A DNA stretch of 45,852 nt from Candidatus Bathyarchaeota archaeon (lineage in GTDB: Archaea > Thermoproteota > Bathyarchaeia > Bathyarchaeales > SOJC01), in assembly GCA_020351305.1 (NCBI GenBank), contig CP070730.1, positions 38,929 through 84,780 on the forward strand. The letters run 5' to 3'. Made by a program: the position numbers and the translations under genes. Below are positions 4,722 to 40,288 of the stretch, piece after piece (positions within the stretch are counted from its first letter, which is position 1; each line of letters starts with the position of its first letter). Below the pieces are notes generated by a model. That model was not told the origin of the DNA and did no database searches. It saw only the letters and a list, made by a program, of their open reading frames with translations.

Positions 4722-5939
4722 ATGATGGATTTCAGTTTCACAGAAGAACAAGATCTTTTCCGCAAAGCTTTACGGGAGTGGTGCGAGAAAAACCTATCTT
4801 TGGAAAAAGTTCGAGAAATGGATACTAAAGGTACGATTCCGCAAGAGCTAGTAAGGGAAATGGCAAAACTTGGTTTGCTAATAATGACCGCTCCAGAAGA
4901 GCATGGTGGAACTGGCGCAGATTGGGTTACGGCATGCATTGCTGCCGAAGAACTGGGCTATGCAGATATTAGTATTGCTGTCCCAGTGCTTTGGCTTGTA
5001 GAATCATCATGGGGATATGTCGTTGACAAATATTGTAGTGAGCAAGTGAGAGAGGACGTTATACGGAAAGCTATCAAAGGAGATGCTTTCATTGGCATAG
5101 GTTCCACGGAATCAAGTGGTGGATCAGATGTTGCTGGCTTCAAATCCACAGCAAGGAAAGAAGCTGACAAGTGGGTGCTTAATGGTGAAAAAATGTACCT
5201 CAGCGGTACAGAAGAGTCGAAAAAATGGGGTGGTGGCTTTTTTGTCAATGCAAGAACATCGCCAGCTCCGCCAGGAGCACCTCATCGTGGAATGACTGGA
5301 TTCTACTTACCAATGGATTCCCCTGGAGTGGAGATTAACAAACGTTTTGATGACATGGGGCGAATGGCTATTTCAACAGGAGGTTTTGTCATGAAAGACG
5401 TGAAGTTACCAGAGAGCTATCTTATCGGTGAGGTGGATAAAGGCTTTTACTTGACAATGGAGGGATTTGATACTGCGCGTATCCTCATTGGTGCAGTATG
5501 CTTAGGTGCAGCAAAACGTGCATTAGAGCTGGGAATAGAGTATATCAAAGAACGAAAAGCTTTTGGACAACCCATCGGAAAATTCGAGGGCATACACTTC
5601 GAGTTAGCAGACGACTGGGCAGAGCTAGAAGCTCTACGGTCTCTTGTTTACAGAACTGCTTGGATGATGGATAAACGATATCAAGAAAAGCGATTCACTC
5701 CCCTTGAGGTAGCCCAGATGATTTCTGCATGCAAGCTGAAAACTCCGCACTTTGCATTCGATGTTTTCAAGCACGTCATGCTATGGTTTGGTGCTTACGG
5801 CTACACAAAAGAATGCCCAATAGAGATGGGTCTGAGAGGCATAATGTCCTACTGTGTCGGTGCTGAAGGAACCACAAATATCCAACGAGTGGTCATAGCT
5901 AGAGAGCTTCTAGGAAAGGAGTACATAGCATACAAATAG
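4722..5939 (+). CDS. Acyl-CoA dehydrogenase
   Basis: A 405-residue flavoprotein of normal family length. It has the N-terminal helical domain, the middle beta domain (GIGSTESSGGSD and the flavin-contacting WVLNGEKMYLSG) and the C-terminal helical domain (RKAFGQPIGKFEG). The expected catalytic base is Glu382 in CVGAEGTTNIQR, the position used by short- and medium-chain dehydrogenases. It oxidises an acyl-CoA to the 2,3-enoyl-CoA and passes electrons to ETF; an etfBA pair ends 7 bases away on the opposite strand and is the probable partner. Substrate chain length cannot be read from sequence. Two consecutive ATG codons (4722 and 4725) are possible starts after a gagga ribosome site. Confidence 0.93.
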   Translation: MMDFSFTEEQDLFRKALREWCEKNLSLEKVREMDTKGTIPQELVREMAKLGLLIMTAPEEHGGTGADWVTACIAAEELGYADISIAVPVLWLVESSWGYVVDKYCSEQVREDVIRKAIKGDAFIGIGSTESSGGSDVAGFKSTARKEADKWVLNGEKMYLSGTEESKKWGGGFFVNARTSPAPPGAPHRGMTGFYLPMDSPGVEINKRFDDMGRMAISTGGFVMKDVKLPESYLIGEVDKGFYLTMEGFDTARILIGAVCLGAAKRALELGIEYIKERKAFGQPIGKFEGIHFELADDWAELEALRSLVYRTAWMMDKRYQEKRFTPLEVAQMISACKLKTPHFAFDVFKHVMLWFGAYGYTKECPIEMGLRGIMSYCVGAEGTTNIQRVVIARELLGKEYIAYK

Positions 5940-5946
5940 AAGGCAA

Positions 5947-6918
5947 TCATACGCTCTTCATTTTTTTCTTCAGTTCTTCTACTATTGCAGGGACAATCTC
6001 GTATAAATCCCCTACAACAACATAGTCAGCGACCTCGAAGATCGCTGCTTCAGGGTCCTTATTTATTGCTACAACAAGCTGAGAGTCTCGCATTCCTGCC
6101 ACATGTTGAATCATGCCACTAATGCCACAGCCCATATAAAGTGTGGGTTTAATCTTCTTTCCTGACAAGCCAATCCATCCTGTGAACCATTTTCGGTCCT
6201 CAGCTAGGGGCCTTGTATTGCCTACTTGACCTTTGAGAAGTTGAGCAAGTTCCTCAAGGCTCTTAAAGTCTTCCTTCTTCTCAATGCCCCTCCCACCACA
6301 CACTACAATCTGTGCCTCTTCAATTTTCACATCAGCTGTTTTCATTTTATTAATCCCAACGACTTCTAACTTGGGCTCTTCAACCGTAACCTCTACATTC
6401 ACTATTTCTCCGCTCTTTTCCTTGGGCTCCATTTTCTCAAAAATTCTAGGTGGTACTGCAGCAATCTGTGGTTTTTTTCGGAATATTGCGGTGACAACAG
6501 CGCGACCACTGTACACGATCCTCTTGGTGACGAGCCATCCATCTTCGTTAATTGTTAATTGACTGCAGTCGGGAGTGCAACCAGTTTCGAGTCTTGCAGC
6601 TAGACGAGAAGCTAGCTCCTTCCCATTTTTTGTAGATCCGATTAAGAGAATCTCAGGCTTGTTGCTTTTGACGAGGCCTGTTAGAGCGTCTAAATAAGTT
6701 TTTATTTCAAAATTCTTCAGTCGTGGGTTGTCAATTAAAAAGACTTTGTCTGCACCGTACTTAAAAGCCTCATTAGCCTTTTCCTTCATTCCACTTCCTA
6801 GCAATACAGCAGCTAGCTCAATGTTGCTGTTTTTTATAAGAGTGCAACTGCCAGCTAAAAGCTCCAACATCAAGTCATAGTTTTCAGAGTAAACCCATAA
6901 ACCCTTGAATTCGCCCAT
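5947..6918 (-). CDS. etfA: Electron transfer flavoprotein alpha subunit, copy 1
   Basis: A 323-residue EtfA/FixB protein. The N-terminal Rossmann-like domain is followed by the C-terminal FAD domain, seen in KKIKPTLYMGCGISG, QHVAGMRDS, AINKDPEAAIFEVADY and VVGDLYEIVP. The loop that in most EtfA proteins reads DxGWxPxxxQVGQTGK is here RKWFTGWIGLSGKK, so the usual Gln-Val-Gly is altered; the second copy in this window keeps the normal DDRQVGSSGK. Five bases separate it from etfB upstream, so the two are one operon. With EtfB it carries electrons from dehydrogenases, presumably the acyl-CoA dehydrogenase gene that converges on it. Confidence 0.92.
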   Translation of the reverse strand: MGEFKGLWVYSENYDLMLELLAGSCTLIKNSNIELAAVLLGSGMKEKANEAFKYGADKVFLIDNPRLKNFEIKTYLDALTGLVKSNKPEILLIGSTKNGKELASRLAARLETGCTPDCSQLTINEDGWLVTKRIVYSGRAVVTAIFRKKPQIAAVPPRIFEKMEPKEKSGEIVNVEVTVEEPKLEVVGINKMKTADVKIEEAQIVVCGGRGIEKKEDFKSLEELAQLLKGQVGNTRPLAEDRKWFTGWIGLSGKKIKPTLYMGCGISGMIQHVAGMRDSQLVVAINKDPEAAIFEVADYVVVGDLYEIVPAIVEELKKKMKSV

Positions 6919-6923
6919 ATCAA

Positions 6924-7727
6924 TTACCTCCCAAGAACACCTTCCTGAATAAGAGCTTTCACTAGTCTCTCTGCAATATCGTCTGGGTTTTCCCCTTCAA
7001 CTACAATCTTTTTTCGTTCAACCTTGGGTGCTAAAACATCCATTATCCTGACTCCTGAACCCTCTTCTCCCGCTTTTTCCTGTGGAATGTTGATGTCTCC
7101 CAGCTTCCAAGTCACTATCTCTTTTTTAGAGGCTTTCATTATTGCCATAAGTGAGGGGATTCTTGGATCGTTAATCTCTTTAGTTACAGTTACTATCGCA
7201 GGCGTTCTGGTCTTTACCATTTCGAAGCTGTCCTCAAGAGTCCTCTCTGCAGTGACGAAGCCATTTTCAAGGCTGATTTTTCTTGCATATGTAATTACCG
7301 GGATGTCTAGAAGTTCTGCGAGACGTGGACCAATTTGCGCTGAGAATCCATCAATAGATGCTTCACCACAGAGAATAATGTCAGGTTGACCGATTTTCTT
7401 CACAGCTTCTGCTAATACAACCGAAATCGCTAGCGTATCGGAATTTTGCATAGCTTCATCACAGATGAGATATCCCTTGTCGGCACCCATTGCCAGTGCT
7501 TCACGAATTGACGTTTTAGCATCTTCTGCACTGGCTGTAACCGTAATAACTTCGCCCCCAATTTTCTCTTTGAGTCGAATGGCTTCTTCCAAAGCGTTTT
7601 TGTCAAAATCGCTAATTTTTCGAGGCACACCAGCTGTAACAAGGTTTCCTGTAGCGTCTGCTCTCAGTTGGCTAACATCTATTGCTTGTTTAAGACAAAC
7701 TATAATTTTTGGCAAGATTTTCTTCAA
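6924..7727 (-). CDS. etfB: Electron transfer flavoprotein beta subunit, copy 1
   Basis: A 267-residue EtfB/FixA protein with the typical opening IIVCLKQAID, the ALEEAIRLKE helix, EALAMGADKGYLI, the nucleotide-contacting LCGEASIDGFSAQIGPRLAELL and the late NDPRIPSLMAIMKA loop. It binds AMP or a second flavin and pairs with EtfA, whose gene follows after 5 bases. A TTG start (MKKILPK) is used in this call; it begins 1 base after the stop of a small upstream ORF, so translation may be coupled. Whether this ETF only shuttles electrons or bifurcates cannot be decided by eye. Confidence 0.92.
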   Translation of the reverse strand: MKKILPKIIVCLKQAIDVSQLRADATGNLVTAGVPRKISDFDKNALEEAIRLKEKIGGEVITVTASAEDAKTSIREALAMGADKGYLICDEAMQNSDTLAISVVLAEAVKKIGQPDIILCGEASIDGFSAQIGPRLAELLDIPVITYARKISLENGFVTAERTLEDSFEMVKTRTPAIVTVTKEINDPRIPSLMAIMKASKKEIVTWKLGDINIPQEKAGEEGSGVRIMDVLAPKVERKKIVVEGENPDDIAERLVKALIQEGVLGR

Positions 7728-25463: not shown

Positions 25464-26687
25464 TTACCACCCCCTGCTTGGCTCCCAAATTTGGTATCCT
25501 TCTAAACTCCAACAAGTAATCTTTGCGTTGTACGCCATTTGATCCACGGTCACTTGCCGTAGATCAGTAGCTGTCCAAACGCTCCCTGTTGGATTACCAC
25601 CAAACAGCGCAGTGGTGGCTAGCGTGCCAATACCCCAAGGCATAAGGGTCATCCCAAATTCATTACCAGACCTGTAGGTCACAAGCAAGAATCCTGGTTG
25701 ACCTATTGGGAGAGTTGTTATTTCATAATTTCTTGAACCATAGTTTAGATGACCGGTTGAGTTGGCTATTGCCCACTCTTGAAAATCGCGGTCTTCTGTT
25801 AATGTGAAAAATGTAGCATTGAACTTATAATCAGGCACAGGTGTTCCTGAATCATGCACATCCCAGCTGTGTGCAAGATAGATTTTTCCTTTTTCATAAT
25901 CAACAACGAAGGGCATGACACCGGAGCCTTGTGTGAAAGTGCGGTGGGAATAGTGACCCAAACCAAGAATCCCGCTCAGACTTGCATATACAATAATTGT
26001 GTATGTCTCGATATCTCCATCAAGAGTAAAATTCAGGTAGGCCACACCAGAGGAGTCGGCTTTCGCTACCCCGGTAGAGAGCTCAAGGGCACCATATTGA
26101 CTCGTTCCATAAGCGCGGTAAAAGTAATAACGTAAAATAGCTCCACTCAGCGGAAAACCTAGGCCTTTGACCTCAACTTTCAAAGTCAAGGGATTAGATT
26201 GGTGTTCAGAAATGGAAACATCTGCGATTGGTGCAATACTAAGTTGAAATCCATAGGTTCCGTTTATTCCCAGTAGCCTTGAAGCAGTCTCATAGTCTAT
26301 TGTGTCACTTATGGGTATAAACAGGTAACTATCCGGTCCTATACTAACATTATTGTACCATATTCCTGAGTCGCGTGGATATTCCACTGGTTCTCCAGAA
26401 AGGGAAGTTAGTCGCATGAGGGCGAAAGAGCTAAGGGAGTAGCCACTTTCTCCTGGTTTTTGAAGTCCAAAAACAGACAAAGTAGTGTTTGTTACGCCCC
26501 AATTATAAGGATAGCCTGGGTTCAGTAGAATATTATCTAAAAGATCACTAGCTTTGAGTGCAACATGCCTATTTTGTTGATACAGAATCGCAGTTTGCAG
26601 AGTCTGGGTGAAAAGACCCATGAATAACACTATTGCAGCTATGAAAGTCGTAGCTGCAACCAAATGATCGATGGTTACTCCAGTCAT
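25464..26687 (-). CDS. Membrane-anchored secreted protein of the pilus operon
   Basis: A 407-residue protein with an N-terminal transmembrane helix (LVAATTFIAAIVLFMGLFTQTL) and a pilin-like heptad region after it (LQTAILYQQNRHVALKASDLLDNIL). A central part (about residues 165-235) has the alternating strand pattern of an Ig-like or transthyretin-like domain (VEVKGLGFPLSGAILRYYFY, GVAYLNFTLDGDIETYTIIVY). It is glycosylation-sequon-rich. The ATG start follows ggaga. It lies between two other anchored proteins in the operon and is probably a minor pilin or surface subunit. Confidence 0.7.
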   Translation of the reverse strand: MTGVTIDHLVAATTFIAAIVLFMGLFTQTLQTAILYQQNRHVALKASDLLDNILLNPGYPYNWGVTNTTLSVFGLQKPGESGYSLSSFALMRLTSLSGEPVEYPRDSGIWYNNVSIGPDSYLFIPISDTIDYETASRLLGINGTYGFQLSIAPIADVSISEHQSNPLTLKVEVKGLGFPLSGAILRYYFYRAYGTSQYGALELSTGVAKADSSGVAYLNFTLDGDIETYTIIVYASLSGILGLGHYSHRTFTQGSGVMPFVVDYEKGKIYLAHSWDVHDSGTPVPDYKFNATFFTLTEDRDFQEWAIANSTGHLNYGSRNYEITTLPIGQPGFLLVTYRSGNEFGMTLMPWGIGTLATTALFGGNPTGSVWTATDLRQVTVDQMAYNAKITCWSLEGYQIWEPSRGW

Positions 26688-26702
26688 AATCTCTTGTCTC
26701 CA

Positions 26703-27152
26703 CTATCCAAACGAAAAGCTGATGGTTCCGTTAGAGAATCTTTCAGCTTTTATGGAAGCACTTGTAGAATTACTTACAAAGGTTGACTCCTCCCAAATTA
26801 CGTTAGGACCTAACGTGACACGAGTTGTAGTAGTGATGTTTATTCCGGTTAAAGCCAAATATAGATCTATCATCGTACTATTCTCAATCTTCTTTTCAGA
26901 AGCTGTAATAGAGTATGGGATAGATTCAATGAATCGTGGGACATTCGCAGCCTGTGTAACTGTTCCAGGTACCACTCCCTCACGGTTGAGAGAGAAGTAA
27001 AGTTGCTGCATAGTGCTTCCAATATGACTTGCAACATCTTGAAGGGCGGTTTCCCTTCGTCGAATAGTCCAAGTATCCATCATCCAACTGACAGCTGCAG
27101 GGATTAGAATAACCTGCATCAAGAGAATTGGAACCATGATGGTATACTCCAT
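26703..27152 (-). CDS. Small membrane-anchored pilin-like protein
   Basis: A 149-residue protein. It opens directly with a hydrophobic helix (MVPILLMQVILIPAAVSWMMD) without a basic leader, followed by a heptad-like amphipathic region (TALQDVASHIGSTMQQLYFS) and a beta-rich head ending in a glycine/serine/phenylalanine tail. This resembles pseudopilins or minor pilins that lack a classical signal cleavage site. The start is the ATG; the ribosome site is weak and the preceding gene's stop is only 34 bases away. Role in pilus assembly is inferred from the operon. Confidence 0.65.
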   Translation of the reverse strand: MEYTIMVPILLMQVILIPAAVSWMMDTWTIRRRETALQDVASHIGSTMQQLYFSLNREGVVPGTVTQAANVPRFIESIPYSITASEKKIENSTMIDLYLALTGINITTTTRVTLGPNVIWEESTFVSNSTSASIKAERFSNGTISFSFG

Positions 27153-27186
27153 GCTTACATGCGGTATCCAAACACCCTCCTACTCA

Positions 27187-28020
27187 TTATGCGTGTACTC
27201 CAAGCGCTACGTCTACGCCTCCAACATAAAGCTCCACAGTTTTGTTAGCCAGTGTTATTGATTCCACAATCTGAGGAAATCTGAAGAAGGAATTATTGAA
27301 TCCAAGCTCATCCATTGGAAAGCTTACTTCAATCCTAATACCTGTAACACTATCTCCTATCTTAGAAAGAGATTTTCCAGTTAGAGTAACAGACTCATAA
27401 CGTTCAGGAGACTCTCCTTCCAAAAGAATGGGCAGATAGAGCCGAATATAATCCGTGTCACCAATACTTAGATTGAGCATTCTTATCGTTGGCACTATCA
27501 CTACCCTGATAAAGCTACTATTCTTCACAGGGAGCTTTTCCACAACGAAAATCCTCGCTGTAGGTGCTGAAGCTCCGCTTAACAGAAAGCTATTATTAGA
27601 AGAGGGATAAATCAACTTAAAGAAGTTATTTCCAATGGAATAACGTGAAACTGGCATATTATAACAGATGATGCCTGTTGTATTGGTGTATAATACTTGG
27701 TTTACTTGTGTTGTAGTGTTTATGTATATTGTATAGTTCAGTGCATTCTCAAAAGCAATATCCCCATATCTGCTTGAATGACGTGCTGTCTCTGTGCGTC
27801 CAATCACCCATGCTACATCGTCAATCTGAAGCCCTATGGTTTGCATGAACTGCTGGGCAGAGTTAAACTCGCTCTCAGCTATCCTGTATACCAGGAAATT
27901 ACTGGCAAAAGCGAGTGCAACAGCGATTAATGCCATCATGGCACCAGTTATTATTACCGTTGAAATAGCAGGGCTTATTGCCTTGTCTTTTCGGCAGCTT
28001 TGTTTTGCCATCAAAGACAT
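27187..28020 (-). CDS. Pilin-like protein with class III signal peptide
   Basis: A 277-residue protein. The N-terminus RKDKA/ISPAISTVIITG is a prepilin peptidase site, followed by a hydrophobic helix (AMMALIAVALAFASNFLVY). The large extracellular head has many N-x-S/T sequons and is longer than typical pilins, which suggests a minor pilin or adhesin. The ATG start is preceded by taggaggtaag, a strong ribosome site. It follows the TadC/FlaJ-like membrane platform gene after 15 bases. The first of five secreted genes in the operon. Confidence 0.8.
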   Translation of the reverse strand: MSLMAKQSCRKDKAISPAISTVIITGAMMALIAVALAFASNFLVYRIAESEFNSAQQFMQTIGLQIDDVAWVIGRTETARHSSRYGDIAFENALNYTIYINTTTQVNQVLYTNTTGIICYNMPVSRYSIGNNFFKLIYPSSNNSFLLSGASAPTARIFVVEKLPVKNSSFIRVVIVPTIRMLNLSIGDTDYIRLYLPILLEGESPERYESVTLTGKSLSKIGDSVTGIRIEVSFPMDELGFNNSFFRFPQIVESITLANKTVELYVGGVDVALGVHA

Positions 28021-28035
28021 GTTTATTCTTACCTC

Positions 28036-29742
28036 CTAGAAGTTTATTAGTGATGGAGCAACCTTAGCCGCAACGATGGCTATCACTGTTAACAAAGCTG
28101 AATGTTTGAAGCCTGCAGCGACAGATTCTTCGCTTATCTTACCCCCAACAAGCCCGATCAAATAGCTGTGCACAATTACAGAAGTGGAGAAAATGACTAG
28201 CAAAGAGTCTATATCAACAGGTGTTGTTGCAGCACCAGGACCAGCAAGACCAACTGTTTTTGTAGTAAATGTAAGCATCATAACGGTTGTAGCCACCAAC
28301 ATGAGAGCTGCAAAGTAAGGCATCATTATGTATGGTTTGACTGCCATTTTCTTTTCTCTCTCCACTTCTTGCGTTGTTGTACTGAACTTGGCAAGTGATT
28401 CAATCATTGCAATTGTTCCACCGCCAACATCAATTGTCTCCACCAGAAGAAACATAACAATTTGTGTCGCCCAGCTCTTCGTGCGCTTAACAAAATCCAT
28501 GAAAACCTTCCTTAATGGGATACCCCAAGAAAGCTCTGCGGTTATCTTCTTCAAATGCTTGCTAAAACTACCATACTCTCGATCAGATAGAGTTTCAACA
28601 CATTTTTCTGGAGCTAGACCAGTCTTCCTTGTCTCTGTGAGATCTTGAAGAAAGAGTGTAACTCCTTTCTCCGTACTTGCTTTTTCCGCTGCAAGCTTCA
28701 TTTGTATGATAGCTGGCGGACCAGCTGAAATCACCAAGGCTATAGAGACAGCTGTTGGAAGGTCAACAAAACTTGTCAATGCAGTTAGAGATGGAATGGA
28801 CACCATGCCGAAGAAGCTAGTGAGAATTGCAAGAACAACGATAGCCAATATGCAGCAAATCCCAAAAACCTTGTAGGGTCTATAGTCTGTGATTGGGGAC
28901 TTTGGCTGCATTCCGTGTGCAAGGTAGATGAATACAAACGAGAGTAGAGGAGTAAAAACATACGTATATAAAATAATCCCTGAATACATTGACATGCCTG
29001 TGCTGTATATTGACTCCACGCTGAACAGGATGTAGAAACACAACGACATTAGAACCATTATGATGATAAATGATTCTAGAAGCATGCCCAAACGCTCAGC
29101 AGCTGCTCGAACTCTTGCAGCTCGTGTCTTGAAGAGCTCTTCAGACTTTGTCTCGAGGAAGCTGGTTATGTCCCCACCTATGATTACCGTTGAAGCATAT
29201 CCTCCCACAAACTCACGGTAAATATCTAATGGGTTTCCCTTAGCAGACTTTTGCATGGCAGTCAGTGGATCCACGCCAAAAATTTCAACGTCTCTGATTA
29301 GGTTCTTTGCTTCCCGACTCATGCAAGGCATTAACTTCGCTTCCGCAAGCCTTTTGAAGCTTGTATATGGCGGAATTCCACCAGAAGCCATAACAGCCAC
29401 GTAGGTTGCGGCAAAGGGCATTTCCCTTTCTAATCTTTGAGCTCGATCGCTAGCTTTAGACATTGGAGCGAGCAAAAAGATGATCATTATGTAGAAAGGG
29501 GTGGGCACCAAGAAGAGAGCAGGTATAAATGAAAAAAAGTATAGCACCAAAATACCGATTATGCTGACTGGAATGCACAGACAAGCTATGAAAAGCATCA
29601 AAGAAACATATGTTTCTGGGTATATCCTCATATTTGCTCGTTCAAGATGCTTGCTGAATTCGAAAATATTCTTCAAGAACCTTGAGGCAATCTTTCCGAA
29701 AAAACGGAAAGAAAGTCCTTCAAGTGTGTCTAGCAGTGGCAA
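28036..29742 (-). CDS. Pilus membrane platform protein (FlaJ/TadC type)
   Basis: A 568-residue integral membrane protein with two T2SSF repeats. Each repeat has a cytoplasmic helical bundle (for example EREMPFAATYVAVMASGG and DLTETRKTGLAPEKCVETLS) followed by membrane segments; about seven to nine hydrophobic helices in total. The platform anchors the cytoplasmic ATPase and adds pilin subunits to the growing filament. It has a TTG start and overlaps the end of the ATPase gene by 23 bases, which fits translational coupling. Its place after the ATPase gene is the standard archaeal order. Confidence 0.88.
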   Translation of the reverse strand: MPLLDTLEGLSFRFFGKIASRFLKNIFEFSKHLERANMRIYPETYVSLMLFIACLCIPVSIIGILVLYFFSFIPALFLVPTPFYIMIIFLLAPMSKASDRAQRLEREMPFAATYVAVMASGGIPPYTSFKRLAEAKLMPCMSREAKNLIRDVEIFGVDPLTAMQKSAKGNPLDIYREFVGGYASTVIIGGDITSFLETKSEELFKTRAARVRAAAERLGMLLESFIIIMVLMSLCFYILFSVESIYSTGMSMYSGIILYTYVFTPLLSFVFIYLAHGMQPKSPITDYRPYKVFGICCILAIVVLAILTSFFGMVSIPSLTALTSFVDLPTAVSIALVISAGPPAIIQMKLAAEKASTEKGVTLFLQDLTETRKTGLAPEKCVETLSDREYGSFSKHLKKITAELSWGIPLRKVFMDFVKRTKSWATQIVMFLLVETIDVGGGTIAMIESLAKFSTTTQEVEREKKMAVKPYIMMPYFAALMLVATTVMMLTFTTKTVGLAGPGAATTPVDIDSLLVIFSTSVIVHSYLIGLVGGKISEESVAAGFKHSALLTVIAIVAAKVAPSLINF

Positions 29743-31345
29743 GTGTTTCTATTTCTCCTATGGAGGCTTTTTCATAGAATTCTTCAGGTCTTGCGTAATA
29801 TTCCGCAATGATTGCTGCAACACCTTTGTAACTCCTTATGTTCTGTTCTCTCATCCAATGCAACACATTTCTGCGCTGATCAAACTCTTTCTGCAAAGAA
29901 TTTCTGCTGACTCCTGTACGTTCGGATACATAAGGAAACATGACACTATCATTGAATGAAGATTGATAGATGTCCTCGGCAGCTTTCCACTTAAACATCC
30001 TTCGATAATCCTCGTAATTGGCAACCTCGTTGACTTCCATTACGCGCCTAAATGCCTTCGTTTCATCCTCTACTTTCTTGTGGACCCTTTGAACAGACAG
30101 AACAATATTCATCAATGGTATGTACGCAGGTGCGATGTCCATAGGTTTTTGAGTAAGACGTTTGACAGCAGAATCGATGTCTTCAGCGTGCATAGTGCTC
30201 ATGCCACCATGACCAGTAGCCATTGCCTGAAACATGACGTAGGCTTCGTTGCCTCGAATTTCTCCCACCACAAGAACATCCGGTCTGTGTCTCATTGAGG
30301 TCTTGACAAGGTCAAAAAGCGTCACCTCTCCAGTCTGGTTTTCGCCAAGACCATAGCTTCTTCTAGCAATCAGAGAAACCCAGTTCTCATGAGAGAGATT
30401 TAATTCAGCTGTTTCCTCTATCGTGATTATCTTGCTTCCAGGCTTGATTAGGCAAGCAAGAGCATTTAGCGCCGTTGTTTTTCCAGCAGCAGTACCCCCA
30501 AGAATCATGATTGAGGCTCTATTCTCTAAACATATCCAAAAATATGCAGCCATCTCTTCAGAAAATGTTCCAAGGTTTATTAAGTCGATGATGGAATATG
30601 GATCTTCTCTAAATTTCCTGATGGTAAAAGCAGTGCCAAAAGGTGTGATTTCACGTCGATAGCAGACCGCAAGCCTATGTTTTCCAGGAAGTGAAGCGTC
30701 AACAATAGGAAATGCAGAGCTCACATGTTTTCCAGCCATATGAACTAGCTTAACAACCGTATTATCTAATTCAGAGTCTTCATAAAAAACTAGGTTAGTT
30801 TCGATGCTTTCATGCTTTCGATGCCAAATATAAACCGGCTTCTTAATTCCATCACATGATATGTCCTCGATGTTAGGGTCACGCATCAGCGGATCAATTC
30901 GTCCGAACCCAACAAGATCTCGCTCGGCGTGATAGAGGATCTTATACCAGGAAACATCTGGCAACCATCCTAAGCTGATTCGATATTTATCAACGATCTC
31001 TCTTGCCTCTGTGGCAAAAAACTTCCTAGGATCTTCTATCTCTTGTTTTGGAGACTCGATTTCTGACAGCAAAATATCTAGGACACGATTATAAATCCCC
31101 TGTTCTAAAGGGTCCAATTGCAATTCATCAAGCATATACTTATACTCTCCTGTCTTTGGGTTCTGCACTATAGCTACATGTGCAAAAGGCTCGTACAATG
31201 GATATCTTTCAATTACCTTTAGACCTCTGGGGACAGGTTTTGGTGGTGGTGTTGGAACAATCCTTCGTTTAGGTTTCTTGCCAAACTTTGGCAGCTTGAT
31301 CTTTTTCATAAAATTCTTTAGTTTTGAAGATGTTTTCTGTGGCAA
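29720..31345 (-). CDS. Type IV pilus/archaellum-type secretion ATPase (FlaI/TadA type)
   Basis: A hexameric-ATPase family protein of 541 residues. It has Walker A GGTAAGKTT (residues 289-297 counted from the longer frame), Walker B in RPDVLVVGEIRG, and the His box GHGGMSTMHAED. The N-terminal 40 residues are basic and proline-rich (KPKRRIVPTPPPKPVPRG). It powers filament assembly through the adjacent platform. The frame opens at TTG 31363, but TTG 31345 is chosen since taggagag lies 5 bases upstream and a TATA element at 31381-31392 places transcription start near 31361. This is the first gene of the seven-gene minus-strand operon. Confidence 0.9.
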   Translation of the reverse strand: MPQKTSSKLKNFMKKIKLPKFGKKPKRRIVPTPPPKPVPRGLKVIERYPLYEPFAHVAIVQNPKTGEYKYMLDELQLDPLEQGIYNRVLDILLSEIESPKQEIEDPRKFFATEAREIVDKYRISLGWLPDVSWYKILYHAERDLVGFGRIDPLMRDPNIEDISCDGIKKPVYIWHRKHESIETNLVFYEDSELDNTVVKLVHMAGKHVSSAFPIVDASLPGKHRLAVCYRREITPFGTAFTIRKFREDPYSIIDLINLGTFSEEMAAYFWICLENRASIMILGGTAAGKTTALNALACLIKPGSKIITIEETAELNLSHENWVSLIARRSYGLGENQTGEVTLFDLVKTSMRHRPDVLVVGEIRGNEAYVMFQAMATGHGGMSTMHAEDIDSAVKRLTQKPMDIAPAYIPLMNIVLSVQRVHKKVEDETKAFRRVMEVNEVANYEDYRRMFKWKAAEDIYQSSFNDSVMFPYVSERTGVSRNSLQKEFDQRRNVLHWMREQNIRSYKGVAAIIAEYYARPEEFYEKASIGEIETLATARHT

Positions 31346-31380
31346 CGTTGCTCTCCTAAACAATTAATGCACATGACTAT

Positions 31381-31559: not shown

Positions 31560-32537
31560 TTACTTTTTCAGTTCCTCAACTTTGCTTTTTAGCGATGGCA
31601 TAATTTTGAAAAGATCTTCTACGACACCGTAGTCTGCTACGCCGAAGATTGGTGCCTTTGGATCCTTGTTAACTGCGATTATTAGGTCCGAGTTTTTCAT
31701 TCCTAGTATGTGTTGGAAAGCGCCACTTATTCCAAGGGCGATGTAAAGTTTTGGTTTAACTGTTTTTCCGGAGCTACCTACCTGTCGATCGTCTGGAAGC
31801 CATCCTTTATCTACGATGGGACGTGAGCATGCCAAGGCTCCTCCGAGGGCTTTCGCTAGTTCCTCTGCTGAGGGAATCTCGCTTTCGTCTTTTATTCCCC
31901 TCCCAATTCCTATGAGTACATCCGTGGCTGTAATATCGACACCTCCTGGGGGTGGTAGGACATATTTGACAAAGCGCTTTTCAGTAATTTCGTCAGAAAG
32001 TGGAGATGTAATCTCAACGATTTCTCCATTTGAAGGAGATTTCTTTCCCGCTGGGAATGTTGCTTGGCGAACAGTTCCAATATAACTTTCTGCCTTTTTA
32101 AGCAGACAATTAACATTCACCTTGCCACCATACATCTGACGAGTTACAGTTAATGCATCATTTCTAAATCCCAAGTCGATACAATCTGTTGCTAAGGGTA
32201 TATTCAGTGAAACGGCTAGGCTTGGAGCTAAATCTAAACCAAAAGAGGTATGCCCCATCAAGGTTAGCAAAGGCTTACGTTCCTTAATTATGCTGGCTAA
32301 CACTCTTTGATAGGTTTCTGAGTTGAAGTTTTCCAATTGGGCGTCTTCTACCACCAAAACTCTTTTTGTATATTCTGAAAGAATCTTTGCATATTCTTTT
32401 ACATTACTTCCAAGGAGCACTGCTGCAAGCTCTGTCTTTGCTGCTTCAGCCAATTCTCGACCTTTAGCCAGCATTTCGAAAGTTATGTCTCTGATTTCAC
32501 CCTGCCTATGCTCAGTTAATACAAAGATTTCCTTCAA
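31560..32537 (-). CDS. etfA: Electron transfer flavoprotein alpha subunit, copy 2 (HdrA-linked)
   Basis: A 325-residue EtfA with an intact FAD motif: DKGWLPDDRQVGSSGKTVKP, LYIALGISGAFQHILGMKNS, AVNKDPKAPIFGVADY and VVEDLFKIMP. It differs from copy 1 in keeping the DRQVG segment. It follows etfB directly (no gap) and lies downstream of hdrA. In anaerobes ETF pairs coded with HdrA are often part of flavin-based electron bifurcation or confurcation complexes; the exact partners here are inferred from the gene cluster. Confidence 0.93.
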   Translation of the reverse strand: MKEIFVLTEHRQGEIRDITFEMLAKGRELAEAAKTELAAVLLGSNVKEYAKILSEYTKRVLVVEDAQLENFNSETYQRVLASIIKERKPLLTLMGHTSFGLDLAPSLAVSLNIPLATDCIDLGFRNDALTVTRQMYGGKVNVNCLLKKAESYIGTVRQATFPAGKKSPSNGEIVEITSPLSDEITEKRFVKYVLPPPGGVDITATDVLIGIGRGIKDESEIPSAEELAKALGGALACSRPIVDKGWLPDDRQVGSSGKTVKPKLYIALGISGAFQHILGMKNSDLIIAVNKDPKAPIFGVADYGVVEDLFKIMPSLKSKVEELKK

Positions 32538-33326
32538 CTAAACCAACCCCCTGGATTTCAGGATATCAGCAATTTTTGCGGCGATTTCTTCTGGGGCTCC
32601 TGCAAGGAACTCAGCTTGCTTTTCAACAGGTGGTACGTACATCTTCTCTGTTTTTATCCATGAACCTGATTCGCCAACCTCATTTTCGCTCAAACCAACT
32701 TCAGCTAAACCAAGGACTTGGGTCTCCTTTTGCATCGCTTTCCTGATTCCCATGATAGAAACATAGCGAGGTTCATTGATTCCAGTTTGAATTGAAAACA
32801 CTGCCGGTAACTTAACATCAATTACTTCCTCTAAGCCCCCTTCCAATTCTCGATTAACTCTGGCGAAGTCTCCGTTAAGCTCGATTTTCTTCACCATTGT
32901 AGCGTGAGGGATCCCTAGTAGTTCTGCAAGAATAGGGCCTGCTGCTGCGAAGCCATCGTCGCTTGCAAGGGCTCCCGTTAATATCACGTTGAAAGGGAGG
33001 TCTTTAATGACGTTGTGAAGGATCTTAGCGGTTGCGAAGCTGTCAGAGCCTTCAAATTTTGGGTCTGTGAGTCTTATAGCTTTGTTGGCTCCTCTTGCTA
33101 AGCATTTTCTTAGAGTGCTGTCAGCTTCTTCAGGACCCACTGTTATAGCTGTCACTGAACCTTCGAATTTCTCTTTTATTTGCACTGCTTCTTCTAAGGC
33201 ATAGTCGTCCCATTCATTGATGTCAAAAACTAATCCACTTTCTTCAATAGCTGTCCCCTTAGGATTGATTTTTAGGTCAGCCTCCGCAGTTTCGGGGACA
33301 TGTTTTACACAGACAATTACATCCAC
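32538..33326 (-). CDS. etfB: Electron transfer flavoprotein beta subunit, copy 2 (HdrA-linked)
   Basis: A 262-residue EtfB, beginning MDVIVCVKHVPETAEADLKI, with WDDYALEEAVQIKE, KCLARGANKAIRL, GALASDDGFAAAGPILAELL and NEPRYVSIMGIRKA. The ATG start is 10 bases after the hdrA stop, and its stop abuts the etfA start. With EtfA it should bind FAD and an AMP or second FAD. The DDGFAAAGP segment is the nucleotide-contacting loop. Whether the second flavin is present, which decides bifurcation, needs an alignment with bifurcating ETFs. Confidence 0.93.
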   Translation of the reverse strand: MDVIVCVKHVPETAEADLKINPKGTAIEESGLVFDINEWDDYALEEAVQIKEKFEGSVTAITVGPEEADSTLRKCLARGANKAIRLTDPKFEGSDSFATAKILHNVIKDLPFNVILTGALASDDGFAAAGPILAELLGIPHATMVKKIELNGDFARVNRELEGGLEEVIDVKLPAVFSIQTGINEPRYVSIMGIRKAMQKETQVLGLAEVGLSENEVGESGSWIKTEKMYVPPVEKQAEFLAGAPEEIAAKIADILKSRGLV

Positions 33327-33336: not shown

Positions 33337-35697
33337 TCAAATGCCTAGTTTCTCTTTCAGTTTATTACGTTTTTCCATGGTGACCGGGCCAAACTTCTTA
33401 ATTCTTTCTGTAAACCTTGTGAACAAGTCTGCAGCCTTTTTGTAGACTGGTAAGGGCACGTAACTGTATCGAACTCTCATGCCTTTTATTCCAAGCTCTG
33501 AAAGAGAACGAATCATCTCGATCATTCTCTTTTTAGAGAAATGCTCATCGATATCCTCTTGCCCCTCAATTACTAGAATCCCATCTGCACCAAAAGCAAA
33601 AGCGTATTGGAGGTGTTTCAAGCTAATTATGGCGGTGGAAGGGACAGTTATTATGCGGATATTCTCTGGATAGTTGACACGATCCAGCCCTAAAAAGTCC
33701 ATACCTGTATATCCAACACCTTTGTCTACAAAAGCAATAATCTTGACTTCATCGGATTTATCCATGAGTACTCCTTGAAGGTTGGCAATAATTTGTCTGC
33801 TGGTCGAATTCTTGAAGTCAATTGCTTCGTAAGGACAAATGGGAATACATGCGCCACAACCAATGCAAAGAAACGGATCGATTCTAGCTTTTCCAGATTC
33901 GATCGTTATTGCATTGACTGGGCAAACTTCAACGCATGAAGCTGTGCCATGGCACATACTTTGTATGACAAAGGCTTTTTCGGGGCTTGTGGTGATATGT
34001 TCTCCTTTAAGGAAGAGAGAAGCTTTAGCAGCAGCAGCCAGAGCATCGGAGACTGTGTCGCGAACATCCTTTGGGCTTAAAGCACATCCACAAACGAAAA
34101 TTCCAGTTCTAAGAGAATCTACAGGATCAAGTTTTGGATGTTTTTCCGTAATGAATCCTTCTTCTCCCAAAGAAAGTTTCATCTTGCCAGCTAGTTCCTT
34201 TAGTTTCTTAGGTGGAACCATAGGTGTAGCCAAGGCAACCATATCAAATTCTTCTTCTTTGACTTCGCCCATCAAGGTGTCTTCTGCTAATACTATGAGT
34301 TTACCATTCTTTTTCTTCCAAATTTCAGCTACTCGACCCTTAGTAAAGACTACTCCGACCTCTTCATCTCGCCAATATAATTCTTCGTAGCCTTTGCCTG
34401 TGGCCCTAATGTCAATATAGTAAATGTGAACATCAATTCCAAGCATTTTTTTAAGCACAAAAGCTTGTTTTAAACCATACATGCAACAGATTCGGCTGCA
34501 ATAAGGAATATGATTCTTGTCTCTAGAGCCTGCACAAAGCACAACAGCCAGCTTTTTAACGTCATTGTCATTCGACATCTTTATGTAGCCTCCTGTTGGT
34601 CCAGAGGCAGATGTTAATCTTTCCAAGTCCATCATGGTAATGACGTCTTTGTAAATCCCATATCCATAATTCTTTAGCATATTCGGGTCGTAAAGCTCGT
34701 AGCCTGTCGCCATAATCATGGCCCCGACTTTCAAATTAATTGTTTTTCCTTTGTCTTCCAGGTTTATGGCTTTAGAAGGGCATACTTGTTCACATTTTAG
34801 GCATTTGGTGCAAGCATCAAAATCTATTGTGTAAGCTGAAGGCACTGCTTGTGGAAAATCTATATAGGCTGCTTTCCTCTCTGATAAGCCTTCATTGTAC
34901 TCATCCGGTGCTACAGCTGGACAAACTTTGGCGCAAACGCCACAGCTTCTGCACATCTCGGTGTCCACGCCTCGAGGTTTCAGGAAAACCTTCACATCAT
35001 AGTTGCCTGGACGTCCGCTAATGTCAATCACCTCAGAGTATGTGAGAAGATTTACATTGGGATTTCTTCCAATCTCCGCCATTCTTGGCGTAAGGATACA
35101 CTGAGCACAATCCAAAGTCGGAAAAACTTTAGTCAGCTTCGCCATGTTGCCCCCAATTGTTGGGTTTCTTTCCACTATATGGACCTTATAGCCCAGATAT
35201 CCCAATTCTAGGGCTGCAGTGATGCCAGCTATCCCTCCACCGACAATTAAGATTTCTCTTGAGCTCTTTTCACTGATTTTTTCCAAAGGCTCAAGCTCTG
35301 CGCTTCGCTCATAACCACCTCTTATGAGGCTTATGGCCTTCTTTGTTGTTGCGCTAGAAGGTTGAGGACCATGAACCCATGAGGCCTGCTCTCTGATGTT
35401 TACAAACTCAAGCATGTAGGGATTTAGCCCAGCTCGTTCTAATGCGCTCTGGAAGGTAGCTAAATGCATTCTAGGCGTGCAACTGGCGATCACAATCCGG
35501 TCCAGATTCTTCTTTTTTATGGCTTCAACTATAGTTTCCTGAGATGGTTTTGAACATAGATATTTTTGATGTTTTGTATCAACAACTCTTTCCCACCCCT
35601 TGACCGCTTCAAGAACGGCTTTGACATCCACGACATCCCCTATGTTCCCACCACACTCGCAAACATAAATCCCGATTCTCGGCGGCTCTTTTTCCAT
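33337..35697 (-). CDS. hdrA: HdrA-like flavo-iron-sulfur protein with degenerate MvhD-like C-terminus
   Basis: A 786-residue protein. Order: N-terminal HdrA cysteine domain (VCECGGNI, residues 12-18, and LCSKPSQ), Rossmann FAD-binding domain (VGGGIAGITAALEL, 152-165) with the HdrA signature LDCAQCILTPRM (195-206), two [4Fe-4S] motifs (Cys249-252-255-259 and 296-299-302-306), a further flavin-domain part, then two ferredoxin-like motifs. In the first of these the second cysteine is Thr585 (C582, C588, C592); the second is complete (611, 614, 617, 621). Residues about 650-768 resemble MvhD but lack its cysteines. It follows the divergent promoter shared with the HdrCB gene and heads the operon with etfB and etfA. 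Confidence 0.93.
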   Translation of the reverse strand: MEKEPPRIGIYVCECGGNIGDVVDVKAVLEAVKGWERVVDTKHQKYLCSKPSQETIVEAIKKKNLDRIVIASCTPRMHLATFQSALERAGLNPYMLEFVNIREQASWVHGPQPSSATTKKAISLIRGGYERSAELEPLEKISEKSSREILIVGGGIAGITAALELGYLGYKVHIVERNPTIGGNMAKLTKVFPTLDCAQCILTPRMAEIGRNPNVNLLTYSEVIDISGRPGNYDVKVFLKPRGVDTEMCRSCGVCAKVCPAVAPDEYNEGLSERKAAYIDFPQAVPSAYTIDFDACTKCLKCEQVCPSKAINLEDKGKTINLKVGAMIMATGYELYDPNMLKNYGYGIYKDVITMMDLERLTSASGPTGGYIKMSNDNDVKKLAVVLCAGSRDKNHIPYCSRICCMYGLKQAFVLKKMLGIDVHIYYIDIRATGKGYEELYWRDEEVGVVFTKGRVAEIWKKKNGKLIVLAEDTLMGEVKEEEFDMVALATPMVPPKKLKELAGKMKLSLGEEGFITEKHPKLDPVDSLRTGIFVCGCALSPKDVRDTVSDALAAAAKASLFLKGEHITTSPEKAFVIQSMCHGTASCVEVCPVNAITIESGKARIDPFLCIGCGACIPICPYEAIDFKNSTSRQIIANLQGVLMDKSDEVKIIAFVDKGVGYTGMDFLGLDRVNYPENIRIITVPSTAIISLKHLQYAFAFGADGILVIEGQEDIDEHFSKKRMIEMIRSLSELGIKGMRVRYSYVPLPVYKKAADLFTRFTERIKKFGPVTMEKRNKLKEKLGI

Positions 35698-35796: not shown

Positions 35797-36906
35797 ATGA
35801 GTGCACAAGAACTTGCTGAAAAACACAAACTTCTTGAGTGCATCCATTGCGGAATATGTACCGGAAGTTGTCCTGTAGCTAGAAAAACCAACTTGAACGT
35901 TAGAAGATATATGCGAGAAATCGCCATGGGCAGCAAAGTGACTATACATCCTCAAAATGAACTTTGGAGTTGCACCACCTGTGCAACATGTGGCCTTCGC
36001 TGCCCAAAAGAAATAATGCCATACAACTTTCTAATTGACATCAGAAGCCTTGCCGTCGAAGGAGGACAGATTGGCCCAACCATAGGAGAAGCATTGGAGA
36101 GTATTTTCAAAAATGGCAATCCATGGGGAAGAATAAGAAGCAAGAGATCCGAGTGGGCACAAGAGTTGAACATCAAACACGCATCGGAAGGCAACGGATT
36201 TCTTTATTTCGTAGGCTGTACACCAGCGTATGACCCCCGGATTCAAGATGCAGCAAAAAGTCTAGTGAAGTGCTTTCACAAAGCGAAAATCGACTTCGGA
36301 ACCTTGGGAGACGAAGAAAATTGCTGCGGAAACGAGGTTTATGGGATGGGCGAAAAAGGCTTATTTGAATTTCTAGTCGAAGAAAACATCAAACTCTTTA
36401 ACAAATACAACATTAAAGAAATTCTCACAAATTGCCCCCACTCATACCAATCATTCAAAAACAGATACGGACAAACAAATTTCAAAGTCCTACATCATAC
36501 ACAACTATTAGCAAAACTGATCAATGAAGGGAAACTTAAATTCTCAACGAAAATAGACAAGACAATCATCTATCATGACCCATGCTTCCTAGGAAAACAA
36601 AACGACATTTATGACGAACCCCGGAAAATCATAGAGAGTATCCCAGGAGTCAAACTTGTAGAATTTGACCGTAATAAGGAGCGAAGCCTTTGCTGCGAGG
36701 GTGGTGGAGGAAGAATGTGGATAGACATACCAGGGGAACGACTTGCTGAAACTCGTATTAAAGATGCAGCTGACGCAGGAGCACAAATATTAGCTGTTGC
36801 TTGTCCCTTCTGTCTCTTAACATTTGAAGACGCTGTCAAAACAACGGGTCTAGAAGGAAAAATTCAGATCATGGAAATAGCTGAACTGCTTTCACAAGCC
36901 ATGTGA
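35797..36906 (+). CDS. HdrCB-like fused iron-sulfur protein
   Basis: A 369-residue protein fusing HdrC- and HdrB-like parts. Two [4Fe-4S] motifs are Cys15-18-21-25 and Cys59-62-65-69. Two CCG (cysteine-rich) domains follow. The second is complete: Cys263, Cys299-Cys300, Cys336 and Cys339. The first has Cys141, Cys176-Cys177 and Cys213, but the last cysteine is Ser216 (NCPHS). In HdrB the CCG domains bind noncubane clusters that reduce CoM-S-S-CoB; relatives serve other dithiol or ETF-linked reactions. The ATG start follows an aagga site. It is divergent from hdrA and followed by the tfrA and tfrB genes. Confidence 0.9.
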   Translation: MSAQELAEKHKLLECIHCGICTGSCPVARKTNLNVRRYMREIAMGSKVTIHPQNELWSCTTCATCGLRCPKEIMPYNFLIDIRSLAVEGGQIGPTIGEALESIFKNGNPWGRIRSKRSEWAQELNIKHASEGNGFLYFVGCTPAYDPRIQDAAKSLVKCFHKAKIDFGTLGDEENCCGNEVYGMGEKGLFEFLVEENIKLFNKYNIKEILTNCPHSYQSFKNRYGQTNFKVLHHTQLLAKLINEGKLKFSTKIDKTIIYHDPCFLGKQNDIYDEPRKIIESIPGVKLVEFDRNKERSLCCEGGGGRMWIDIPGERLAETRIKDAADAGAQILAVACPFCLLTFEDAVKTTGLEGKIQIMEIAELLSQAM

Positions 36907-36953: not shown

Positions 36954-37007
36954 GTTAGTCTAGAGACTTATGTTTTCTCTTCAAATAACCCATGTTAGGT
37001 GAACTTG

Positions 37008-38708
37008 TTGGAAGCACTAAGTCATGATATAGTTATAGTTGGCGCTGGAATGGCTGGTCTTCGAGCTGCAATCACTGCAGCCGAGATTAACGACAAGATT
37101 GACATTGGTGTGATTTCTAAAGTATACCCAATACGTTCCCACTCAGTCTGTGCGCAAGGCGGAACAGCTGCTATGATGAGGGATGGAGATTCATACGATC
37201 TGCATGCTTGGGACACGGTGAAAGGATCGGATTTTCTCGCAGACCAAGATGTCGTGGAGTTTTTTGTGAAAAAAGCCCCTGAAGAAATCACCACACTAGA
37301 ACATTGGGGCTGTCCCTGGAGCAGAACCGAAGAGGGAAAAATAAACCAACGCCCTTTCGGTGGTCATAGCTTCCCACGGGCATGCTTCGCAGCCGACATG
37401 ACTGGTTTTCACGAGATGCACACACTGGATGGAAAAGCCAAGACATATCCAAACATTAAATTCTATGATGAATGGTTTGTCACCTCCCTCATGATTGAGA
37501 AAAATGCTGCAGCAGGTTTGACAGCCATAGAGTTGAAGACTGGTGAAATGTCAGTATTTCGTGCTAAAGCCATAATAATGGCGACTGGTGGCTACGCACG
37601 CGTCTACGAGTTTACAACATTTTCCCACACAGCGACAGGTGATGGAATGACAATGGCCTACCGGGCTGGTGTGCCATTAAAAGACATGGAATTCATTCAA
37701 TTCCACCCCACAGGAATGGTTCCATCAGGAATTTTGATAACAGGAGGTGCCCGTGGAGAAGGAGGATACTTGGTCAATGCTAAAAGCGAGCGTTTTATGA
37801 AACGTTATGCTCCTGAAAAGATGGAGCTAGCCCCTCGCGACATAGTTTCCAGAGCAGAGACAACAGAGATTCAGGAAGGGAACGGAATCGAAGGTCCACA
37901 CGGACCCTATATAGCTTTAGACCTTAGACATCTGGGCGAGGAGAAGATAAACGAAAGGCTTCCACTAATACGAGATGTGGCAATAAAACTAAGCGGAGTA
38001 GACCCCGTAGATGAGCCAATACCAATTAGACCAGCTGCTCACTATTCCATGGGGGGAATTCACGCAAACATAAAGACAGAAACATCAGTTCTAGGATTCT
38101 ATGCTGCTGGTGAATGTGCATGCTTAAATGTGCATGGAGCAAATAGACTCGGCACTAATTCCACATCAGATTGCTTGGTTTTTGGAGCTGTTGCTGGCGA
38201 AGAAGCTGCCAAATTCGCTCTTTCACATGACCTTCGAGATTTTTCTCAAGAAAAAGCCTTGGCAGAGGAAAGGAGAATATTTGACGATATCTGGGGCAGA
38301 GAAGGGGATGAAAGGATTCCCGTTATAAGAGATGAGTTGAGACGTATTATGAGCGAAAGGGTTTGGGTTTTCAGAAAAGAAGACGAACTTAAGAGTGCTT
38401 TGAATGAAGTAAGAGAGCTTAAAGAAAGATTCAAGAACACAAGGGTTGAAGACAGAGATAGGCAATTTAACACTGGACTCGTAGGTGCTTTGCAACTTGA
38501 CTTCACGTTAGATTTATCCGAAGTTACAATTGCCGGTGCACTTGCTAGAACAGAATCAAGAGGAGCCCACACAAGACTCGATTACCCTAAACGTGACGAT
38601 GAAAACTGGTTGAAACACACTCTAGGCCATTATACAAAGGATGGTCCCAGACTCGCATATATTCCAGTTACTATCACGAAGTGGTCCCCAGCGGTGAGAG
38701 CCTACTAG
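37008..38708 (+). CDS. tfrA: Fumarate reductase / succinate dehydrogenase flavoprotein (TfrA-like)
   Basis: A flavoprotein of 566 residues in the FrdA/SdhA/TfrA family. It opens with the FAD-binding motif [15 protein letters not shown] and has [10 protein letters not shown], whose histidine (His48 in the longer frame) is the covalent FAD site in SdhA and FrdA. Later motifs include [21 protein letters not shown] and [17 protein letters not shown]. It interconverts fumarate and succinate. TTG 37008 is chosen because aggtga lies at ideal spacing; GTG 36999 is inside that site. Downstream, tfrB overlaps or closely follows. No membrane anchor subunit gene is present, which fits the soluble thiol:fumarate reductase type. 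Confidence 0.92.
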
Positions 38709-38722
38709 GAAATGAAACAGTC

Positions 38723-40288
38723 ATGAATTTGCAGATTGAAAAGACTATTAAATTCAAAATTCATCGCTTTAATCCTGAACAAAAAAGACGCTATCTCTCA
38801 GAGTATGAAGTCCCTGTCCGAAAAGGAACCACACTACTCGATGTTTTCATGTATATAAAAGATAATTTTGATGGGGCATTCGCGTTTAGACATTCATGTA
38901 GAATGGGAGTGTGTGGAAGCTGTGGGGTTATGGTTAATGGAAAACCCATGTTGGCTTGTTACACACAAGTGCTCCATCTGAACTCTGACACATTGGTAAT
39001 TGAACCGCTCCAAAACATGCCTATTATTAAAGACCTAGTTGTTGATCTTCAACCATTCTTTGATACGTATAAGAGTATACGAAATGTCCTGATCAAGCCT
39101 GAAGAAGCATTGAAAAGGCTTGAAGAGTTTATTCAATCACCAAAAGATCTTAAAGATTACTGGGACTTGTCACTATGCATCAAATGCTCCATTTGCTACT
39201 CTGCATGCCCTGCAGCACTTGATGAAAGATTCCTCGGACCTTCTACATATGTCACTAACTATCGCTTTGTTTCAGATTCGAGAGATGAAGGGTTCGATGA
39301 ACGATTGAAAGCTATGGTTGACAATGTGTGGCTGTGCACTTCCTGTAACTCTTGTACAGAGTTCTGCCCAAAGGAGATCAGCTGCGCGTCTTCCATTGTA
39401 GATGAACGCGGTCTTCTGGTCGAAGCTGGAAGCATACCCAGAACAGTCAAAGACATACTGACAAGCGTTGTCAGATACCATAATCCGCTGGAAATTCACC
39501 CGAGCAAAAGGATAGATTGGGCTAAGGACCTAGAGGTTAAAATGTTTCCAACAGTCTCCAAATCTGATGTGCTGTTTTTCATTGGTTGCGCCCCCTCCTA
39601 CGATCCAAGGAGTCAAGCAATAGCCAAGTCAATGGTTTCAGTATTCAACAGTTTGGGTATTGACTTCGCAACACTGGGCACCGAAGAGCGGTGCTCCGGC
39701 GATCACGTACTCAGACTTGGGGAGAAAGGGTTGTTTGAAATGCTTGCCGAACATAACATCTCGATGTTTGAAAAGTTCGAAGCCGAGACGATTCTAACAC
39801 TGTGCCCCCACTGTTTCAATACTCTCAAGAATGATAAACCATATAGTAACAAGCGACTTAATGTTCAGCACTACACCCAGTTTCTGGCTGAAATCATCAA
39901 AAGGGATGAACTCAAGCTTTCCAAATCTTTCAATAAGAAAGTTGCCTATCACGACCCTTGCTTTTTAGGAAAACGCAACGATATTTATGATGCCCCAAGA
40001 AAGATCTTAAAACTAGTAGATGGCTTGGAATTCCTGGAGATGAAAAGAACAATGGAGAACAGCTTTTGTTGTGGTGGAGGAGCTGGAAGAACCTGGACAG
40101 AGGATTCGACTCCTCAAAAAAGACCTAGTGTAGATCGAGTTAGAGAAGCCTTGGAACTCGGAGTTCAGGTCATAGCCACTGCCTGTCCGTTCTGTGTAAC
40201 AACACTGGAGGATGCTGTGAAAGTGTTAGATGTCGAAGACAAAATCGTAGTAAAAGAAATCCTTGAACTGTTAAAAGAAGCGATGTGA
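38723..40288 (+). CDS. tfrB: Fumarate reductase iron-sulfur/CCG subunit (TfrB-like)
   Basis: A 521-residue protein built like TfrB of thiol:fumarate reductase. Domains: N-terminal [2Fe-2S] ferredoxin (Cys59, 64, 67 and 79), two [4Fe-4S] motifs (Cys152-155-158-162 and Cys205-208-211-215), then two HdrB-like CCG domains. The second CCG is complete (Cys413, Cys449-450, Cys488, Cys491). The first has Cys289, Cys361 and Cys364 but only one cysteine of the central pair (Arg323-Cys324). The frame extends upstream to 38681, overlapping tfrA; ATG 38723 is chosen for its taggaaa site. In methanogens the same subunit oxidises CoM-SH and CoB-SH; the donor here is unknown. Confidence 0.92.
   Translation: MNLQIEKTIKFKIHRFNPEQKRRYLSEYEVPVRKGTTLLDVFMYIKDNFDGAFAFRHSCRMGVCGSCGVMVNGKPMLACYTQVLHLNSDTLVIEPLQNMPIIKDLVVDLQPFFDTYKSIRNVLIKPEEALKRLEEFIQSPKDLKDYWDLSLCIKCSICYSACPAALDERFLGPSTYVTNYRFVSDSRDEGFDERLKAMVDNVWLCTSCNSCTEFCPKEISCASSIVDERGLLVEAGSIPRTVKDILTSVVRYHNPLEIHPSKRIDWAKDLEVKMFPTVSKSDVLFFIGCAPSYDPRSQAIAKSMVSVFNSLGIDFATLGTEERCSGDHVLRLGEKGLFEMLAEHNISMFEKFEAETILTLCPHCFNTLKNDKPYSNKRLNVQHYTQFLAEIIKRDELKLSKSFNKKVAYHDPCFLGKRNDIYDAPRKILKLVDGLEFLEMKRTMENSFCCGGGAGRTWTEDSTPQKRPSVDRVREALELGVQVIATACPFCVTTLEDAVKVLDVEDKIVVKEILELLKEAM

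Follow-up and report, generated by a model that had tools for sequence, protein, structure and literature searches.

The window, by which we mean the whole 45,852-nucleotide stretch of DNA analysed here, comes from a genome that is bathyarchaeal judging by its relatives. It encodes HdrA, an electron-splitting protein, with a C-terminal MvhD/FlpD domain, flanked by genes for an ETF and, in divergent orientation, for an HdrC-HdrB fusion. The relevant features are:

33337-35697, minus strand: HdrA with C-terminal MvhD/FlpD domain, 786 aa (Pfam and PDB matches; closest NCBIfam model HdrA2)
33808-33975, minus strand: C-terminal ferredoxin domain of HdrA, residues 575-630, with two [4Fe-4S] motifs (Fer4 matches; Cys columns in 25 orthologs)
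33388-33741, minus strand: cysteine-less MvhD/FlpD domain of HdrA, residues 653-770 (PF02662 match; MvhD fold; ligand columns D658, V661, S687, G712 and a gap)
32538-33326, minus strand: EtfB, 262 aa, non-bifurcating by motif (PF01012; lacks DGDTAQVGP; best PDB match 1o94)
31560-32537, minus strand: EtfA, 325 aa (PF01012 and PF00766)
35797-36906, plus strand: soluble, EtfD-like HdrC-HdrB (HdrD-like) fusion, divergent from hdrA (Fer4 and CCG domains; PDB match EtfD 9ojn)
36999-38708, plus strand: SdhA/TfrA-like flavoprotein (succinate dehydrogenase/fumarate reductase), possibly associated
38681-40288, plus strand: SdhB-CCG fusion (TfrB-like), possibly associated (TfrB 340 bits, below the cut-off of 385)

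What kind of HdrA is this? Residues 4-646 of the open reading frame match solved HdrA (phmmer, 623 bits), and the protein scores 848.6 bits with the HdrA2 model NF040770, under the curated cut-off of 1100. By its domain content we assign it to type Ia, the HdrA2-like proteins in which HdrA is fused to a C-terminal MvhD; such fusions are already known (PMC5296606, PMC12054007, PMC11237513). Its cluster cysteines, those of the N-terminal, FAD-domain, inserted and C-terminal ferredoxin sites, are kept in 24-25 of 25 orthologs except at position 585, the second Cys position of the first C-terminal ferredoxin motif (bases 33943-33945, minus strand). Here, 23/25 orthologs carry Cys, the window protein carries Thr (T585) and ortholog L040 carries Ser, giving CxxTxxC and CxxSxxC, respectively, and the cluster at this motif may be [3Fe-4S] or otherwise altered in these two proteins. 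Lys410 of the CCMYxxK motif, invariant in 40 HdrA sequences, aligns with solved HdrA and, by position, would be the counterpart of the FAD lysine described there (K409; PMC12054007). In the methanogen complex, electrons travel from MvhD to the C-terminal ferredoxin and on to FAD (PMC9012536).

An earlier note on this DNA had read an MvhD-like pattern at residues 650-768 (window bases 33750-33394, within the HdrA open reading frame) and named a profile search as its test. The similarity is there, and the coordinates and motifs proved exact: residues 653-770 score 74.5 bits with the Pfam model PF02662 (FlpD), whose cut-off is 22.3. Queried with phmmer, the whole HdrA retrieves the MvhD chains of several PDB structures at 1e-8 to 1e-11, and for the domain alone MvhD chains are the sole PDB matches (1e-9 to 1e-12). 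An AlphaFold model of the isolated domain, built from 40 related sequences (pLDDT 82.5), points the same way, its four best Foldseek matches being the MvhD chains 5odc_D, 5odh_D, 8rvu_F and 7bkb_F (E 4e-10 to 2e-8, TM 0.74-0.85).

The same note held that the [2Fe-2S] cysteines of MvhD are replaced by other residues, and the alignment with solved MvhD bears this out at all five positions, the corresponding columns being D658, V661, S687, G712 and a gap. Past the C-terminal ferredoxin, the HdrA tail of the window protein contains no cysteine at all, and the five MvhD ligands score 0/5 in the window and 0/5 in all 56 cysteine-less sequences aligned. Counting cysteines in related archaeal HdrA proteins, as had been suggested, gives the same picture: the ligands are absent from every ortholog with a readable tail, in Bathyarchaeia, Nezhaarchaeota and Borrarchaeum, as well as from the second HdrA of the window genome. 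Chance or a MAG or sequencing error is ruled out as the cause, since the loss recurs in all of these orthologs. Because all five ligand positions are replaced, both the cluster and its relay role would be lost, as the note had supposed. We thus interpret the domain as an MvhD homolog that is not a functional MvhD relay, and the first step of the methanogen electron path as missing in the window HdrA.

How far does this loss extend? Among 121 genomes from the order and family, 29 encode a domain closely orthologous to that of the window (59-100% identity), and a second domain type, at 30-42% identity, occupies about 20 further places in these genomes; all domains read in both sets lack the ligands. 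Other phyla were sampled through named contigs, among which orthologs were found in Bathyarchaeota, Nezhaarchaeota (61%) and Borrarchaeum (60%). The window genome itself encodes seven FlpD domains. Five keep all or most of their cysteines (one free MvhD, three HdrA fusions and one other fusion), and two HdrA fusions, the window protein and the second HdrA, have no ligand cysteine. The latter is encoded in an hdrABC operon (L136 5681-8089; L007/L136, genome C1 about 329680-332090). Further cysteine-less HdrA proteins occur elsewhere in the phylum, two of them adjoining an SdhA-like gene. Of the five MvhD cysteines, just two survive in four HdrA proteins (L148, L149, L153, L154) that belong to other families in the phylum. 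These two-cysteine proteins, which adjoin SdhA-like and HdrC-like genes, possibly represent an intermediate stage of the loss. FlpD domains missing one of the five cysteines were also encountered (L005 and L126 1935-2741, with CSWS and CNWS replacing CxxC).

On a tree of the HdrA core, from which the MvhD part was left out, a branch with an SH-aLRT of 99 separates all 38 cysteine-less proteins from the others, and the two-cysteine proteins stand beside this clade. A tree of the domain, which uses only ~120 residues, supports the cysteine-less grouping at 94/84; with the ligand columns and their neighbours removed, the cysteine-less domains still lie on one side, at 85/26. We reject the ligand columns as the cause of the grouping: the stripped domain tree is weak, but the core tree, free of any such columns, is strong. 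With trees rooted by midpoint only, the simplest reading would be a single ancient loss of the ligands, perhaps stepwise, in the ancestor of the whole archaeal lineage.

Has the domain merely outlived its function? A vestigial remnant that persists only through its fusion to HdrA would be in keeping with the total loss of ligands. However, the domain is under purifying selection: dN/dS between close pairs is 0.02-0.18, low and near that of the catalytic core (the FAD part gives similar values), mean identity within the clade is 74% as compared to 78% for the FAD part, and, contig ends aside, no ortholog without the domain was seen. New invariant residues likewise disfavour decay. At residue 711, adjoining the former ligand position G712, all 56 cysteine-less sequences have Glu, and all 34 sequences of the cysteine types have Gly or Ala; D/E at 658, Ser at 687, Pro at 750 and Tyr at 752 are further marks of the lineage. 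We therefore regard a mere remnant as highly improbable. Retention as a structural part or, as the earlier note had proposed, a binding part fits both the selection and the lineage-specific residues, and the place of the lost cluster seems to have taken on a new specialisation. To what end is a separate matter. The pocket might have been rebuilt for another ligand, such as a nucleotide, a deazaflavin cofactor or a metal, and now serve as a new substrate or cofactor site; D/E658, S687, the invariant E711, P750 and Y752 are found at ligand columns and in loops expected, for this type of fold, to point into one pocket. Yet the same residues could form salt bridges that stabilise an empty pocket, there is no ligand-bound homolog, and the secondary Foldseek matches of the domain model, to lumazine synthase, are weak (TM <0.5), leaving a new ligand site rather improbable in our judgement.

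The gene neighbourhood ties the window branch to ETF. Near hdrA, etfBA is found in 17/27 orthologous loci, and of the ten others four are on contigs that end at or soon after hdrA. The HdrC-HdrB fusion, at an identity of at least 63%, adjoins hdrA in 25/27 loci, the SdhA/TfrA-like gene in only 3/27. The combination of etfBA and the fusion near hdrA recurs, in differing gene orders, at four loci of other families in the phylum. In genomes with non-adjacent etfBA, an ETF 70-76% identical to that of the window is encoded elsewhere (10/10 checked); at the loci read in detail, this ETF has acyl-CoA dehydrogenase genes next to it, and at several of them the beta-oxidation set is complete. Overall, ETF genes are present in 28/29 genomes with a window-type HdrA vs 46/92 others, a contrast inflated by shared ancestry. 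No hydrogenase or formate dehydrogenase genes adjoin the window HdrA.

Elsewhere in the window, at positions 4722-7727 and about 25 kb from the HdrA-linked ETF, a gene for an acyl-CoA dehydrogenase lies convergently with another etfBA pair, which is only distantly related; the EtfB of this pair reads DGFSAQIGP, closer to the bifurcating motif. Positions 25464-31363 (minus strand) look, from their translations only, like an archaeal type IV filament system, with a GspE-type ATPase, a membrane platform protein and pilin-like proteins. In the SdhB-CCG protein, the CCG part has a CPHC motif with an EtfD-type His, and this protein may have a link to ETF instead of being a thiol:fumarate reductase.

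The HdrA-linked EtfB has as its best PDB match the trimethylamine-dehydrogenase-linked ETF (1o94). Its motif reads DDGFAAAGP, and most orthologs are of the DDGxAxxGP type; DGDTAQVGP, the b-FAD motif of bifurcating EtfB (PMC9232219), is absent. A bifurcating ETF as the branching site is thus disfavoured, and the branching flavin, if any, should be the FAD of HdrA. The HdrC-HdrB fusion, in turn, has mycobacterial EtfD as its best PDB match (9ojn, 188.9 bits over 313 residues), a protein that hands electrons from ETF to menaquinone (PMC13083937). All ligands of the EtfD D2 noncubane cluster (five Cys and His583) are kept in 28/28 orthologs of the fusion. The His ligand makes D2 non-catalytic; in the sister branch, HdrB carries Ala or Gly instead. 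A membrane or heme b domain is absent from the fusion, whose 369 aa comprise only Fer4 and two CCG domains.

Which of these proteins would receive the ETF? The earlier note had put forward ETF as a possible partner of the MvhD-like domain. If EtfBA docked directly on this domain, a mobile ETF flavin could feed the C-terminal ferredoxin and bypass the lost [2Fe-2S] cluster, an arrangement consistent with the adjacency of ETF genes in most loci of the window branch, with both C-terminal ferredoxin motifs being complete in 23/25 orthologs, and with the constraint on the domain. However, the same cysteine-less domain occurs in a sister branch that has ordinary hdrBC but lacks an ETF next to it; docking of ETF thus fails to account for the loss and is disfavoured as its cause. 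Moreover, a subunit of a known kind of ETF partner, the EtfD-like fusion, is encoded next door and accompanies ETF even where a window-type HdrA is lacking, as in two genomes with an hdrDC-etfBA-acyl-CoA dehydrogenase operon. We therefore judge docking on the MvhD-like domain unlikely, though worth keeping in mind, and the claim emerges weakened. Being EtfD-like and retaining its D2 ligands including the His, the HdrC-HdrB fusion is the likelier ETF partner.

Together, the explanation we favour, and to which we give slightly better than even weight, is that of a type Ia HdrA whose MvhD cluster was lost throughout the lineage, whose domain was kept as a structural or docking part and which, in the window branch, belongs to an ETF-linked complex. 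Electrons would then no longer pass through the MvhD-like domain, and input from a hydrogenase or formate dehydrogenase of the methanogen type is therefore unlikely; the cluster-less domain would sit beside a still intact C-terminal ferredoxin. From gene order and homology, we infer for the window branch a complex of HdrA, EtfBA and the EtfD-like HdrC-HdrB fusion, the last in place of HdrBC. EtfBA, single-flavin and non-bifurcating by motif, would exchange electrons with acyl-CoA dehydrogenases and with the fusion, which would pass them to or from the HdrA FAD as branching flavin. Ferredoxin would be the low-potential partner of HdrA. Its counterpart at middle potential, which could be F420, NAD(P)H or a protein at the C-terminal ferredoxin, probably reacts independently of an MvhD relay. 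We take F420H2 as the model for this third partner, with NAD(P)H as the alternative, because F420H2 reacts with HdrA2 (PMC5296606) and the window genome has cofD. HdrA2-like use of F420 alone does not account for the loss, since HdrA2 is reported with an intact MvhD cluster. As to direction, textbook potentials would make bifurcation towards enoyl-CoA the favourable one, and the reverse would need driving.

Carried one step further, the MvhD relay of an ancient archaeal HdrA lineage may have become a module that has no cluster and whose pocket is rebuilt, and one branch of this lineage may have become a soluble ETF:ferredoxin electron-branching complex (HdrA, EtfD-like HdrCB fusion, non-bifurcating ETF) in which HdrA, rather than a bifurcating ETF, couples electrons of the acyl-CoA level to ferredoxin. 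We offer this as a tentative proposal that could well prove wrong. If the ETF reading is true, these uncultured archaea have a soluble, HdrA-based means of balancing electrons of the beta-oxidation level against ferredoxin; current metabolic models of these organisms either leave this step open or give it to a bifurcating ETF.

The methanogen enzyme, which electrons enter via MvhD, is the usual model for HdrA complexes, and annotation pipelines will name the present domain MvhD, taking for granted a [2Fe-2S] relay that is fed by hydrogenase or formate. The cysteine-less enzymes of Bathyarchaeia, Nezhaarchaeota, other members of the phylum and Borrarchaeum probably cannot work by such a relay. 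That a whole lineage lost the cysteines yet keeps the domain under strong selection suggests that their wiring departs from that of the methanogen model, and that the window branch serves ETF, a carrier of electrons tied to metabolism of the fatty-acid type. In the open-access literature searched, we found no description of the loss of the MvhD cluster or of a complex of HdrA, an EtfD-like protein and ETF; prior mention elsewhere is possible.

Compared to known systems, the window HdrA most resembles HdrA2 of the Methanosarcina acetivorans HdrA2B2C2 complex (PMC5296606, PMC12054007; NF040770), which has the same domain order over its full length and gives the best NCBIfam score; the N-terminal, FAD, inserted and C-terminal ferredoxin domains are all kept. 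In HdrA2, however, one Fe2S2 cluster is reported in the MvhD domain, whereas all five ligand positions are gone in the window protein, and the partners would differ, being HdrB2C2 for the former and the EtfD-like fusion plus ETF for the latter. With MvhD of MvhAGD-HdrABC (5odc, 8rvu, 7bkb), the window domain has fold and sequence family in common; unlike it, it lacks cluster ligands and is fused to HdrA. The fusion aligns with mycobacterial EtfD (9ojn, PMC13083937) over 313 residues and shares its D2 ligands including the His, but has no membrane or heme part in its 369 aa, would pair with HdrA, and shows changed D1 ligands, with C at the Thr539 position and S at the Cys584 position. Finally, the bifurcating Bcd-Etf, Ldh-EtfAB and CarCDE complexes share with the proposed assembly the ETF and acyl-CoA dehydrogenase chemistry and a presumed low-potential ferredoxin partner; in contrast to these, the window EtfB lacks the b-FAD motif, and the branching flavin would be the FAD of HdrA.
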